Of a stretch of 46,934 nucleotides of DNA, positions 43,125-46,934 are shown piece after piece (positions within the stretch are counted from its first letter, which is position 1; each line of letters starts with the position of its first letter). The notes beneath the pieces were generated by a model that searched no databases, had not been told where the DNA came from, and saw only the letters and a list, made by a program, of their open reading frames with translations. Origin of the DNA: Candidatus Thorarchaeota archaeon. GTDB lineage: Archaea; Asgardarchaeota; Thorarchaeia; Thorarchaeales; Thorarchaeaceae. Location: positions 1 to 46,934 of the forward strand of contig JACAEL010000072.1 in the NCBI GenBank assembly GCA_013388835.1, in the 5' to 3' direction. Position numbers and translations under genes: made by a program.

Positions 43125-44396
43125 ATGGCTAACAACTCTGGCTATGGTTTTGCCACATGGACCTCCTTCATTGAGGAGAGTCAGATTCGTGCGCTTCTGA
43201 AATACAATGTTCGATACTACTTTGCGGGTGGAAAACCGGGCATAATACCCACGACGGTGTTTGCAGACATCATGAGGGACTTGAGCGAGCAGTACAGGAA
43301 AAACCCTGCATTGGCTGTCGAGGACCTCAATTACGGACCGACGGGTGGCCATCCTTGGTTCTTGAAGACGTTGGCAAAGAGGCTTCATGATGTCAGAGGG
43401 ATTCCGATAGACTGTGAGACCCAGTGGGACCGCGTCTCAATCACCAATGGCTCGCAGCAGGCTCTGTATGCGCTGCTGGACACACTGATCGACCCCGGAG
43501 ACGTGATAATCACTCCCTCTCCATCGTACTTGGGCTTTCTCGTGCCTGCTGTGAAACTCGGTGGGAGAATCGTCACGGTGCCCACAGACCTAGACGGAAT
43601 AATCCCTGAGTTCGTCGAGAAGGCAATCTTCGTATCGAAGATGCGGTTCGGCAAGACTCCAGACATACTGTACGTGGTCCCGGACTCGGACAATCCCAAG
43701 GGCACCACGCTTCCGGCAAAGAGGCGAAAGGAGCTCTTCGATATCTGCGAGAACCACAACGTACTGTTGATTGAGGACTCCGCCTATGCTGAGATCCAGT
43801 TCAAGAAGAACCCGCCGCCGATAAAGACCTTGGACAAAGACAACACGCGAGTTGCCTATCTGGGCACCACCAGCAAGGAGGCTGCTGTGCTTCGGGTCGG
43901 CTACTCAGTACTTCCTGTCAATGTCAGGGAACAGGTCCTCAAGGACAAGGGATACTTGGACCTCTGTACATCCAGTATGGTTCAACGAATACTCGACGTC
44001 TACTACCGCGAGCACATTGACCAAGCAATGCGCGAAGGGATTCCCAAGTACAAGGAGCGATGCGAAGCCATGGCAAAGGCCATTGACAAGTCCTTTCCAG
44101 CCGGAGTCCGGACAGACCCAACTGGCGGCTTCTTCATATGGTGGCAGAGTGAGGACTCCAGCTTCAAAAGCAGCGAGTTCATGATGGAGGTGGCCATACC
44201 CAACGATGTGATGTACGTCCCCGGTGCGCCGTTCTACCCCATCACTGGCTTCTCGCTCACTGAAGACGGCTCTGACGTTGTACCCAGCCGACCTGAGCAC
44301 AACACCATGCGCCTTGGTTTCTCCTATGCATCACCTGAACTCATCGCCGAGGGAATCGAACGTCTTGGAGGGCTTCTGAGCAAGCACCTCAAGTAG
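43125..44396 (+). CDS. class I/II PLP-dependent aminotransferase
   Basis: 423 residues, fold type I. PLP residues: N190 (PDSDNPKG), D218 and Y221 (IEDSAYAE), Schiff-base lysine K251 (LGTTSKEAAVLRVGYSV) and the phosphate-binding R257. The N-terminal YFAGGKPGIIPTTVFADIM and YGPTGGHPWFLKTL, plus a C-terminal MRLGFSYASPELIAEGIERL, place it near the LysN/Kat/MocR-like aminotransferases (2-aminoadipate, aromatic or branched-chain). The exact amino donor is not decidable. The upstream region carries two palindromic sites; downstream a strong hairpin ends it before convergent bshC. Confidence 0.85.
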   Translation: MANNSGYGFATWTSFIEESQIRALLKYNVRYYFAGGKPGIIPTTVFADIMRDLSEQYRKNPALAVEDLNYGPTGGHPWFLKTLAKRLHDVRGIPIDCETQWDRVSITNGSQQALYALLDTLIDPGDVIITPSPSYLGFLVPAVKLGGRIVTVPTDLDGIIPEFVEKAIFVSKMRFGKTPDILYVVPDSDNPKGTTLPAKRRKELFDICENHNVLLIEDSAYAEIQFKKNPPPIKTLDKDNTRVAYLGTTSKEAAVLRVGYSVLPVNVREQVLKDKGYLDLCTSSMVQRILDVYYREHIDQAMREGIPKYKERCEAMAKAIDKSFPAGVRTDPTGGFFIWWQSEDSSFKSSEFMMEVAIPNDVMYVPGAPFYPITGFSLTEDGSDVVPSRPEHNTMRLGFSYASPELIAEGIERLGGLLSKHLK

Positions 44397-44437: not shown

Positions 44438-46138
44438 CTAAGCCATGAAGTTCACGAACAATGTGGAGCCATTCTTGAGCGCACTGTCGTACGCCCTCTC
44501 GTATGGTCCCATGAGGTCTCTGAATCCTGCGTTGACTGCCCACTCAATCCACGACCAAGTGGACTCTTGACCCAGCTTGCCCAGTGTGTACTGCCCGAAC
44601 GCCCAGCTCAAATAGCACTCCAAGTCGAACTTCAGTCTATGGTTCTCCTCATTCGTCATGTCCGCTTGCTCCAAGAGCTGCTTCAGTGTGGAGTTGGCCT
44701 CACTGTGGGCCTGTGAGATCAGTCGCTCAAGTTCACTGACTCTGGAGTTCATGTCATCAGGTCTGCCCTTCTTCCTTGCACGAGCAATCGATCCCAACAG
44801 CCCAAACACCGCCTGTGACTGTATCACACTCACTTTGGCCTCTTTCAGTCTGGCAGCCATGCTCTCTCCCCAAGGCGTGTTGAAGTAGACCCGTGGGTAT
44901 TTCACGAACATCGGAAAGGTGATGCCCAGTTCTCTAGCGACGGGAATGACTTGAGCGTAGTAGGCGGCCTCACCCGGGCCTCCCACATGACACACCGTGG
45001 GTATCAACATGTCCACGACCATCTGACGTGTGTCCACTCGGGGTGCGAGTTCCTTGGCAAACTGACTCAGGTCTGGGTCTTGTGCATCCGCCTCTATCTC
45101 GACGTGCTGTTGACAAACCGGGCACCTTCCTCTGAGTAGGGCGGCCCCATCGCTGCTCTCGTAATGCAGTTCCATTCTGGCCCTGTGGCATTCTCTTCCC
45201 GGGCATTCATAGAAGAACGGCACATAGTCGTCCGGCCTCTTTCCCATTCCAGTGTCCAGCCCTGCCTGAAGAATGGCCTGTGTCGCTTGGTCATGCGCTC
45301 TCAGGAACCTGTCTCTGTTGTCACTTGCAAGGAGGTACTCCATCCCTCCGACCATTGTCTCTCTCACCTGTGGGTCCGAGGCCGGGAGCAGGGGCACACC
45401 AAGGTCGCACTCTATATTGAGCAGCCGTGCAAGTATCTTCTGTGACCACTCGCCCAGCGTCTGGGAGTTGTAAAAGGCCCATCTGACTACGCTCAGGGCC
45501 TGCTCTAGACGTTCTTCAAACATGGTCTTTGCACGGTCGTCGAGGACCTTGAAGAGTGGTCTGTAGCCCGCCCTGACGGACTCCTCCACTCGCACATACC
45601 ACTCGTCTGACGGGGCTGGCAAGACGCTGACTGGAGAGTACTCGTATCCCTCCGGCACAGGAAAGCTCACCAGATTGCCCTCTGCTCCAAGGAGCGGGGT
45701 CCTCATGTTGGTCAGTTCTGGTTGTACCTCGTCGTAGTCTGCGACAAAGAAGAACGGCGCCAGCGAGACTCCCGAGCGCTCGGATATCGCAGCTACTCGA
45801 GCCGCCGTCGCGGCCTTGTTGAGGACATACACAGGGCCTCCCATACAGACTGCCTGATGTGCAGCCTCGACAGCCCCCTCAGACAGCATCTCTATCCTTC
45901 TCTTGACTGACGGTGTCAGTGCACCGAGCCGTCTGTTGGCAGCTGTCAGAATGTCAGCTACCTTGGAGATCCTCTCCTCGGTTAGCCATCCTGTCTTCTG
46001 ATACCTGTCACGAAGTCTTACCGCCCTGGGCGGAATCTCTCCGAGGGTCACGGGTGGTGTGTCGTAGAGTAGCGCTGCAAGTCCTGTATCCGTGCCGCGC
46101 CATATGAATGACTGGTAGACCTCTACGACACTTCTCAC
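44438..46138 (-). CDS. bshC: BshC-like putative cysteine ligase of bacillithiol-type synthesis
   Basis: 566 residues. BshC adds cysteine to glucosaminyl-malate to finish bacillithiol. Family spots: CMGGPVYVLNKAATAARVAA (98-117) with FFFVADYDEVQPEL, equivalent to the BshC GG-P-Y-K-x-A and AxDxH-type region, and HVGGPGEAAYYAQVIPVARE (384-403), then FPMFVKYPRVYFNTPW. A long C-terminal coiled coil follows (SELERLISQAHSEANSTLKQ). Residues ~305-350 form an insertion with C312, C317, C339 and C342 (CPGREC ... CPVC), a zinc-ribbon-like element not found in Bacillus BshC as I know it. It starts 11 bases after bshA. Assignment by family recognition. Confidence 0.75.
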   Translation of the reverse strand: MRSVVEVYQSFIWRGTDTGLAALLYDTPPVTLGEIPPRAVRLRDRYQKTGWLTEERISKVADILTAANRRLGALTPSVKRRIEMLSEGAVEAAHQAVCMGGPVYVLNKAATAARVAAISERSGVSLAPFFFVADYDEVQPELTNMRTPLLGAEGNLVSFPVPEGYEYSPVSVLPAPSDEWYVRVEESVRAGYRPLFKVLDDRAKTMFEERLEQALSVVRWAFYNSQTLGEWSQKILARLLNIECDLGVPLLPASDPQVRETMVGGMEYLLASDNRDRFLRAHDQATQAILQAGLDTGMGKRPDDYVPFFYECPGRECHRARMELHYESSDGAALLRGRCPVCQQHVEIEADAQDPDLSQFAKELAPRVDTRQMVVDMLIPTVCHVGGPGEAAYYAQVIPVARELGITFPMFVKYPRVYFNTPWGESMAARLKEAKVSVIQSQAVFGLLGSIARARKKGRPDDMNSRVSELERLISQAHSEANSTLKQLLEQADMTNEENHRLKFDLECYLSWAFGQYTLGKLGQESTWSWIEWAVNAGFRDLMGPYERAYDSALKNGSTLFVNFMA

Positions 46139-46149
46139 CCTCTGACCTC

Positions 46150-46934
46150 CTATCTTCTGAGTGCCTCCTCAAAGACACTCTCGTACATGGGGACCACCTT
46201 GTCTGAGGAGAAGCTGTCCTCCACTCTCTTTCGCCCAGCCGAAGCGAGCTGTCTTCGCGTCTTATCATCCTCAAGAAGTGCAACTACTGCTTCAACGTAT
46301 TCCTCCTTTTCGAACCCCTCTGTCACAACCCCGTCCTTCCCCGGTCTGACTAGCTCGGGCACGCCGCCAGCCGGGGTGGTGACCACTGGTAGTCTGCAGG
46401 CCATGGCCTCGAGCAGTACGAGTGGCATTCCCTCTAGTGTCGAATTCAACAGGAACATGTCCGCGCAGCACATGAGTTCCTGCATGTTGCTTCTCACGCC
46501 CAGAAGATGCACCTTCTTGCAGAGATTGAGTTCCTCTATTCTCCGTTCCACGTTGACTCTAGTGGGTCCGTCGCCTGCAATCAGTAGTCTGCAGTCAGGT
46601 ACCCTCTCGACTACCCCCTTCATTATGTCCACCAGTTCCACAACCCTCTTGACAGCCCTGAAGTTCGAAGCGTGAAGGAGTATCTTCTCATGCGCACCTA
46701 TTCTCTCAGCCTCCTCTTCCGACCTCCTCGACACGCAACCACTCTCTACCACTAGTCTGACCCCCTGCCGGGGAACGAATTGCTTCACGTCGATGAAGTT
46801 CGGGATCACATGCATGTCTCTCTTCACTCCGAGGAGGTCATGTGCCTTCCGTGCAAGAAACTCGGAGACCACCGTGACCGCGTTGGCCTTCTCTGCGGTG
46901 TGCTTCACAACCGGCTTGTATGCGGGGTCTGACC
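46150..46934 (-). CDS. bshA: BshA-like glycosyltransferase (GlcNAc-malate synthase), cut by the window edge
   Basis: Partial GT4 protein; the first ~110 or more residues lie beyond the right edge. The frame runs out of the window as SDPAYKPVVKHTAEKANAVT VVSEFL, like the BshA segment GxDPxxxxxxxxxxxxSDxVTAVS, so the GTG at 46908 is internal. Then come VIPNFIDVKQF, the BshA hallmark HASNFRAVKRVVELVD, LLIAGDGPTRVNVERRIEEL, and the donor loop LNSTLEGMPLVLLEAMACRL PVVTTPAGGVPE. BshA joins UDP-GlcNAc and L-malate, the first step of bacillithiol synthesis. Adjacent bshC on the same strand strengthens the call; the deacetylase BshB is not visible. Confidence 0.8.
   Translation of the reverse strand, partial: SDPAYKPVVKHTAEKANAVTVVSEFLARKAHDLLGVKRDMHVIPNFIDVKQFVPRQGVRLVVESGCVSRRSEEEAERIGAHEKILLHASNFRAVKRVVELVDIMKGVVERVPDCRLLIAGDGPTRVNVERRIEELNLCKKVHLLGVRSNMQELMCCADMFLLNSTLEGMPLVLLEAMACRLPVVTTPAGGVPELVRPGKDGVVTEGFEKEEYVEAVVALLEDDKTRRQLASAGRKRVEDSFSSDKVVPMYESVFEEALRR

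Follow-up and report, generated by a model that had tools for sequence, protein, structure and literature searches.

A predicted bshB–bshA–bshC gene cluster for synthesis of a bacillithiol-type thiol in Thorarchaeota, with counterparts in other Asgard archaea and in Bathyarchaeia

Introduction

The closest described systems are the bacillithiol (BSH) pathway of Bacillus, comprising BshA, BshB1 and BshC, and the mycothiol pathway with MshA, MshB and MshC. With regard to archaea, an earlier review listed 39 hits for BshA and the same number for BshC, most of them from Asgard archaea, whereas BSH itself had escaped detection in this domain (Rawat and Maupin-Furlow, 2020; PMC7278568). A more recent BLAST analysis with Chlorobaculum queries and an E-value of 1e-20 concluded that no archaea possess the complete bacillithiol pathway (Hammerstad et al., 2025; PMC12719100).

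Here, we analyze a Thorarchaeota locus for which an original prediction, made from the DNA alone, had proposed genes for bacillithiol-type thiol synthesis. This pair of bshA and bshC is not the first hint of archaeal Bsh proteins, because homologues were already noted in 2020 (PMC7278568). The proposal as such gains support, as none of the three findings named in advance as speaking against it was made, i.e., a generic glycosyltransferase in place of BshA, a BshC devoid of the family residues or a genome lacking a BshB-like deacetylase. Together with a third gene, the pair probably makes up a complete Thorarchaeota pathway to a low-molecular-weight thiol of the bacillithiol type.

Results and Discussion

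Organization of the Thorarchaeota gene cluster

The window, i.e., the whole stretch of DNA that was analyzed (46,934 nucleotides), is the entire contig C72 of a 3.0 Mb Thorarchaeota genome that is 97.6% complete. At its right end reside two minus-strand open reading frames with a spacing of 11 bases (Table 1), and profile and PDB matches bear out their initial assignment as bshA and bshC. The bshA frame runs off the end of the contig and the gene is, therefore, incomplete within the window. A search of the genome with TIGR03999 located its N-terminal part right where contig C7 begins. The C7 piece ends with ...MHGSD and the C72 piece starts with SDPAYK..., and comparison of these ends with the corresponding stretch of the relative L128, HGSDVHSLGQDPAYK, indicates that the two contigs nearly touch; the gap amounts to about 12 nt, provided that the loop is as long as that of relatives. 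As a PIG-L gene adjoins the N-terminal part of bshA on C7, the cluster consists of bshB oriented divergently from bshA-bshC.

This arrangement is intact and has the same gene order in 20 out of 20 Thorarchaeota loci from other species, and it recurs in the named Thorarchaeota loci that cover the region. A gene for an archaeal GlmM (TIGR03990, 532 bits) is located next to bshB in all 20 loci, and GlmM feeds UDP-GlcNAc synthesis. A gene for a class I/II aminotransferase (43125-44396(+) in the window) is convergent with bshC in nearly all of these loci. In family f9 (L077:3991-5268(+); L078:6867-8138(-)), bshA and bshB are absent from the neighborhood of bshC, and a similar aminotransferase gene, checked in L078, is likewise convergent with bshC.

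Table 1. Location of the cluster genes and of conserved BshC segments. Positions without prefix refer to the window.
Feature	Position	Strand	Evidence
bshC-like gene, archaeal-type BshC (predicted cysteine : glucosaminide ligase), 566 aa	44438..46138	-	TIGR03998, PF10079, AlphaFold2, 4wbd fold match
bshA, C-terminal 260 residues, GT4 N-acetylglucosaminyl L-malate synthase family	46150..46932	-	TIGR03999, PDB 2jjm
bshA, N-terminal 122 residues	G000:C7:2-367	-	TIGR03999 positions 1-124, 131 bits
bshB, PIG-L deacetylase	C7 450-1133 (L014:450-1133)	+	PIG-L profile search of the genome
BshC residues 94-108, HQ....GGP....NK (bacterial GQQ....GP.....K)	45815..45859	-	Q95, G101, K108 invariant in both types
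BshC residues 134-141, DYD....E (bacterial EDHD..E)	45716..45739	-	D136, E141 invariant in both types
BshC residues 312-342, zinc-ribbon-like insert C312/C317/C339/C342	45113..45205	-	archaeal type only
BshC residues 386-390, GGPGE	44969..44983	-	G387, E390 invariant in both types

BshA and BshB

In the TIGR03999 search, the BshA fragment in the window aligned with profile positions 131-374 at 213.6 bits, and its PDB matches are the solved BshA structures of Bacillus anthracis and Bacillus subtilis (2jjm, 3mbo and 5d00) with E-values down to 1.4e-40 (2jjm). The curated cut-off of 273.7 bits applies to full-length scores, and the two halves of the split protein (213.6 and 131 bits) were each scored alone on separate contigs. 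The intact Thorarchaeota orthologue L128 exceeds the cut-off with 389 bits (E-value 2.7e-81 for 2jjm) compared with 65 bits on MshA models, as do the BshA proteins from Bathyarchaeia with 417-419 bits. A rooted tree unites the BshA proteins of archaea and bacteria in a single clade that is set apart from other GT4 proteins and paralogues with support values of 99/98. The motif residues GGSG, HYAIPH, TLHG, SNFR..KR and EX7E are conserved in the composite protein from C7 and C72, kept only in members of the BshA clade and missing from GT4 paralogues of the same genome. The scores of the orthologues and the supported clade thus distinguish this protein from a generic GT4. In the LIRFG stretch, the arginine of bacterial BshA is replaced by lysine, glutamine or glutamate in most Thorarchaeota; an interpretation of this exchange as the sign of a new acceptor was rejected, as the arginine also varies in bacterial BshA.

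A deacetylase resembling BshB is likewise present: the genome-wide search returned the PIG-L gene next to bshA, the product of which belongs to this family with 77.3 bits (gathering score 28.2). For BshB1 (TIGR04001), its 86.2 bits are below the curated cut-off of 182.5, yet this is the best-matching NCBI family, and the best PDB matches are BshB from Bacillus cereus and B. subtilis. The HPDD motif and the last histidine of the HxDH motif are kept in Thorarchaeota. The first histidine of HxDH, which functions in acid-base catalysis in MshB, is asparagine in all Thorarchaeota BshB inspected, whereas it is kept in most other archaeal BshB. Two further PIG-L genes of the same genome are located on contig C53.

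Archaeal-Type BshC

The 566-residue BshC matches TIGR03998 with 78.3 bits (E-value 5.5e-22), which falls short of the curated equivalog cut-off of 265.8 bits, and for this reason we refer to it as archaeal-type BshC and not as a canonical member of that family. It surpasses the gathering score of 27 for PF10079 with 66.3 bits, and a sequence search against the PDB retrieved 4wbd, the BshC from B. subtilis. The same structure was the top fold match (E-value 1.2e-18, TM 0.66/0.69) for an AlphaFold2 model with a pLDDT of 91.4; a control model of a bacterial BshC gave TM values of 0.85/0.84 with 4wbd. Sequence identity in the structural alignment with 4wbd is 17%, and alignment of archaeal-type with bacterial BshC by hhalign yielded a probability of 99.9% and an E-value of 2.9e-33. 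Leaving out a divergent clade associated with GT2 enzymes and apart from one bacterial exception at P409, twelve residues (Q95, G101, K108, D136, E141, R321, G387, E390, Y393, P409, Q524 and E525) are common to archaeal-type and bacterial BshC, the B. subtilis protein 4wbd included. BshC combines the fold of the family with the residues shared with bacteria. Class I lysyl-tRNA synthetase (1irx) is the second-best fold match for archaeal as well as bacterial BshC models, with partial overlap (TM about 0.36-0.40). A closer relationship of archaeal BshC to this synthetase was rejected, as the bacterial control model matched it about equally well.

A zinc-ribbon-like insert sets the archaeal type apart. 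All four of its cysteines, which putatively bind a metal, occur in 21/21 Thorarchaeota sequences, 3/3 from family f12, 8/8 from Bathyarchaeia type I and 5/5 from families f19/f20, and are lacking in bacterial BshC. A single in-frame TAA or TAG was observed inside the BshC match in the metagenome-assembled genomes (MAGs) G127, G142, G163, G639, G640 and G655, which may reflect a sequence error, a pseudogene or an alignment that extends past the stop.

Proposed Pathway and Comparison With Bacteria

Genes, homology, clustering, conserved residues, fold and co-occurrence are observed; from these we infer substrates, product and use of the thiol as follows. Judging from its homologues, BshA would transfer GlcNAc from UDP-GlcNAc to L-malate (yielding GlcNAc-malate) or a similar acceptor, BshB encoded on C7 would strip the acetyl group off this product, and archaeal-type BshC would couple the free amine with cysteine at the expense of ATP, giving rise to bacillithiol or a close cysteinyl-glucosaminide. 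Proteins of the DinB superfamily probably use up the thiol in conjugation and detoxification.

The archaeal cluster has in common with the Bacillus pathway that three homologous enzymes are present in one cluster, that BshA orthologues score above the cut-off, that the deacetylase is of the PIG-L type and that fold and shared residues of BshC are retained. It differs from it in the separate clade, the insert and the low family score of BshC, in the departure of Thorarchaeota BshB at the catalytic-type HxDH motif and in the lack of bacilliredoxin and usually also YpdA. The mycothiol pathway follows the same logic of a GT4 glycosyltransferase, a PIG-L deacetylase and a cysteine ligase; however, the last archaeal step is assigned to a BshC-type protein and not to MshC.

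Distribution and Phylogeny

Within the Asgard phylum, TIGR03998 matches were present in 121 of 228 genomes. A profile built for archaeal-type BshC gave true or canonical hits in about 120 of these 228 genomes, among them almost every member of family f1 (Thorarchaeota). Outside the phylum, no more than two weak hits were obtained in approximately 165 archaeal genomes searched. The class Bathyarchaeia features BshC matches in 35/257 genomes, and bshB, bshC and bshA with a BshA above the cut-off occur together in two named Bathyarchaeota MAGs. The Bathyarchaeia clusters fall into type I, where the gene for an archaeal-type BshC is convergent with bshA and bshB is nearby, and type II with a bacterial-type bshC-bshB-bshA operon; a third kind is constituted by a few BshC-like proteins next to GT2 enzymes. 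In type I clusters an amidohydrolase gene is located between bshB and bshC (L133:4932-5909(+), PF04909), and an open reading frame of the same length occupies the same place in L131 (626-1603(+)); the enzyme is possibly a hydrolase of thiol conjugates or precursors.

Phylogenetic analysis against bacterial Bsh proteins placed archaeal BshA together with bacterial BshA, as outlined above, and separated BshC into two clades. One comprises the proteins from Thorarchaeota, most other Asgard families and type I Bathyarchaeia, while type II Bathyarchaeia and the Asgard families f11/f24 are nested within the bacterial clade. The BshC tree is unrooted and contains few bacterial sequences, such that it gives no direction for deep transfers. 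The location of Thorarchaeota BshC in a separate deep archaeal clade nevertheless argues against a recent import from Bacillota. Acquisition by transfer, as considered originally, is thus unlikely as a recent event in Thorarchaeota, but some other archaea did acquire a separate BshC of the bacterial type.

That the genes as a whole are a recent bacterial transfer or a binning artefact could be suspected from these nested f11/f24 and type II sequences and from the division of the window's bshA between two contigs. The deep archaeal clade, the constant gene order across 20 species, the location of several type I and type II Bathyarchaeia clusters on contigs of 1.1-2.3 Mb and the presence of archaeal-type PheS, PheT and AMP phosphorylase on the named Bathyarchaeota cluster contig make this explanation extremely improbable. 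A binning artefact in particular is rejected on the basis of synteny in the 20 species and of the chromosome-sized contigs.

Potential Partner Proteins

The DinB/STL superfamily includes proteins demonstrated to act as bacillithiol S-transferases in B. subtilis (PMC5815605). Two DinB/STL-type proteins are encoded in the window genome. Among Asgard archaea, DinB_2 is present in 104 of 120 BshC-positive and 13 of 108 BshC-negative genomes (P 4e-32); 7 of the latter 13 fall into families where nearly all members contain BshC, so that assembly loss is likely in these seven. Co-occurrence extends to genomes G093-G159, which mostly belong to family f20 and rarely contain BshC (DinB in 6/9 with vs. 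2/58 without BshC, P 2e-5), and to the independently tested Bathyarchaeia (33/35 vs. 42/222, P 2e-18), all three P values ignoring phylogeny. In 21 of the 35 Bathyarchaeia genomes, a DinB gene is located at a distance of 6.5 kb or less from bshC. These associations lend independent support to a role of the clusters in thiol metabolism. Type I Bathyarchaeia clusters feature one or two DinB-superfamily genes immediately upstream of bshA (L133:8913-9419(-), L133:9472-9972(-), L212:3406-4464(+), L213:3707-4736(+)).

Bacilliredoxin BrxA/B (PF06491) was found in none of 20 archaeal genomes searched, and among the same 20 only G041 from family f8 encodes a YpdA (TIGR04018) above the cut-off, with 355 bits. 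This YpdA-like reductase resides at L164 (G041:C2:342363-343331) in a genome that also contains BshC and BshA. BrxA/B and YpdA were dropped as supporting partners, since they are largely absent from the 20 genomes. With no bacilliredoxin and YpdA in a single f8 genome only, recycling of the thiol would differ from that in Bacillus.

Clusters With GT2 Glycosyltransferases

The BshC of Asgard families f19 and f20 is of the archaeal type and retains the shared residues, save for a lysine in place of R416. The f20 BshB tested reaches 205.6 bits and thus exceeds the 182.5-bit cut-off. BshA was not found in the f19/f20 genomes searched, where the best GT4 scored about 125 bits vs. more than 400 for true BshA, and a gene for a GT2 glycosyltransferase is instead located directly upstream of bshB-bshC. 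The GT2-BshB-BshC operon is represented by loci L081-L085 (genomes G090, G092, G127, G128 and G147) and L224 (G163), with one f21 genome showing a fragment of this arrangement. The presence of GT2 in place of BshA in two Asgard families suggests a variant thiol: with this replacement, a different glycoside and hence a different thiol are predicted, and the aglycone can evidently vary.

This exchange bears on the product of the Thorarchaeota cluster itself, which might be a bacillithiol analogue with a cysteinyl-glucosamine core and an acceptor other than L-malate or an additional modification. The altered LIRFG arginine, the departure of BshB at HxDH and the extra insert in BshC would fit such an analogue, as would the GT2 enzymes standing for BshA in f19 and f20. 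However, the LIRFG arginine is variable in bacteria, too, BshA retains the remaining motif residues that were checked, and its orthologues score above the BshA cut-off. We consider an analogue a rather unlikely, albeit serious, alternative.

The third kind of Bathyarchaeia protein (L220, L222 and L223), together with L225 from G178 of family f27, constitutes a related clade of BshC-like proteins of approximately 570-600 residues. GT2 genes adjoin the BshC-like gene in L220 and L223, and the one in L225 lies next to genes for a UDP-sugar dehydrogenase, DegT and GFO/IDH proteins. The clade has lost G101, E390, Q524 and E525, it was rejected as BshC on account of these missing residues, and its members probably represent another family of amino-sugar ligases. 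Their position next to GT2 and, in f27, sugar-nucleotide genes could be taken to mean that BshC-like proteins in general attach an amino acid to the amino sugar of a cell-surface glycan or lipid, unrelated to a soluble thiol. For Thorarchaeota this is improbable: the clade that invites the comparison is the one without the BshC residues, the Thorarchaeota cluster contains a true BshA and no adjoining surface-glycan genes, and DinB proteins track BshC. The synthesis of a bacillithiol-type thiol remains the preferred reading of the Thorarchaeota cluster.

Implications

The three-gene clusters in Asgard archaea and Bathyarchaeia contradict the denial of an archaeal pathway in 2025 (PMC12719100). 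That they escaped earlier surveys is probably due to archaeal BshC and BshB not reaching the identity and E-value thresholds applied with bacterial queries. In a limited literature search, we found no report of the complete cluster, its occurrence in Bathyarchaeia, the archaeal BshC clade or the GT2 variant.

Asgard archaea are the closest relatives of eukaryotes, and low-molecular-weight thiols are known from only a minority of archaea. We tentatively put forward the possibility of an old archaeal branch of bacillithiol-type synthesis, common to Asgard archaea and Bathyarchaeia and endowed with its own BshC. The products of this branch would not all be bacillithiol, as families f19/f20 and one f21 genome would make at least one new thiol of the cysteinyl-glucosaminide kind, and bacterial BSH may be a branch of a deeper archaeal diversity. 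A bacillithiol-type thiol is predicted for Thorarchaeota and Bathyarchaeia, and organisms with the GT2 variants would be places to seek a new one.
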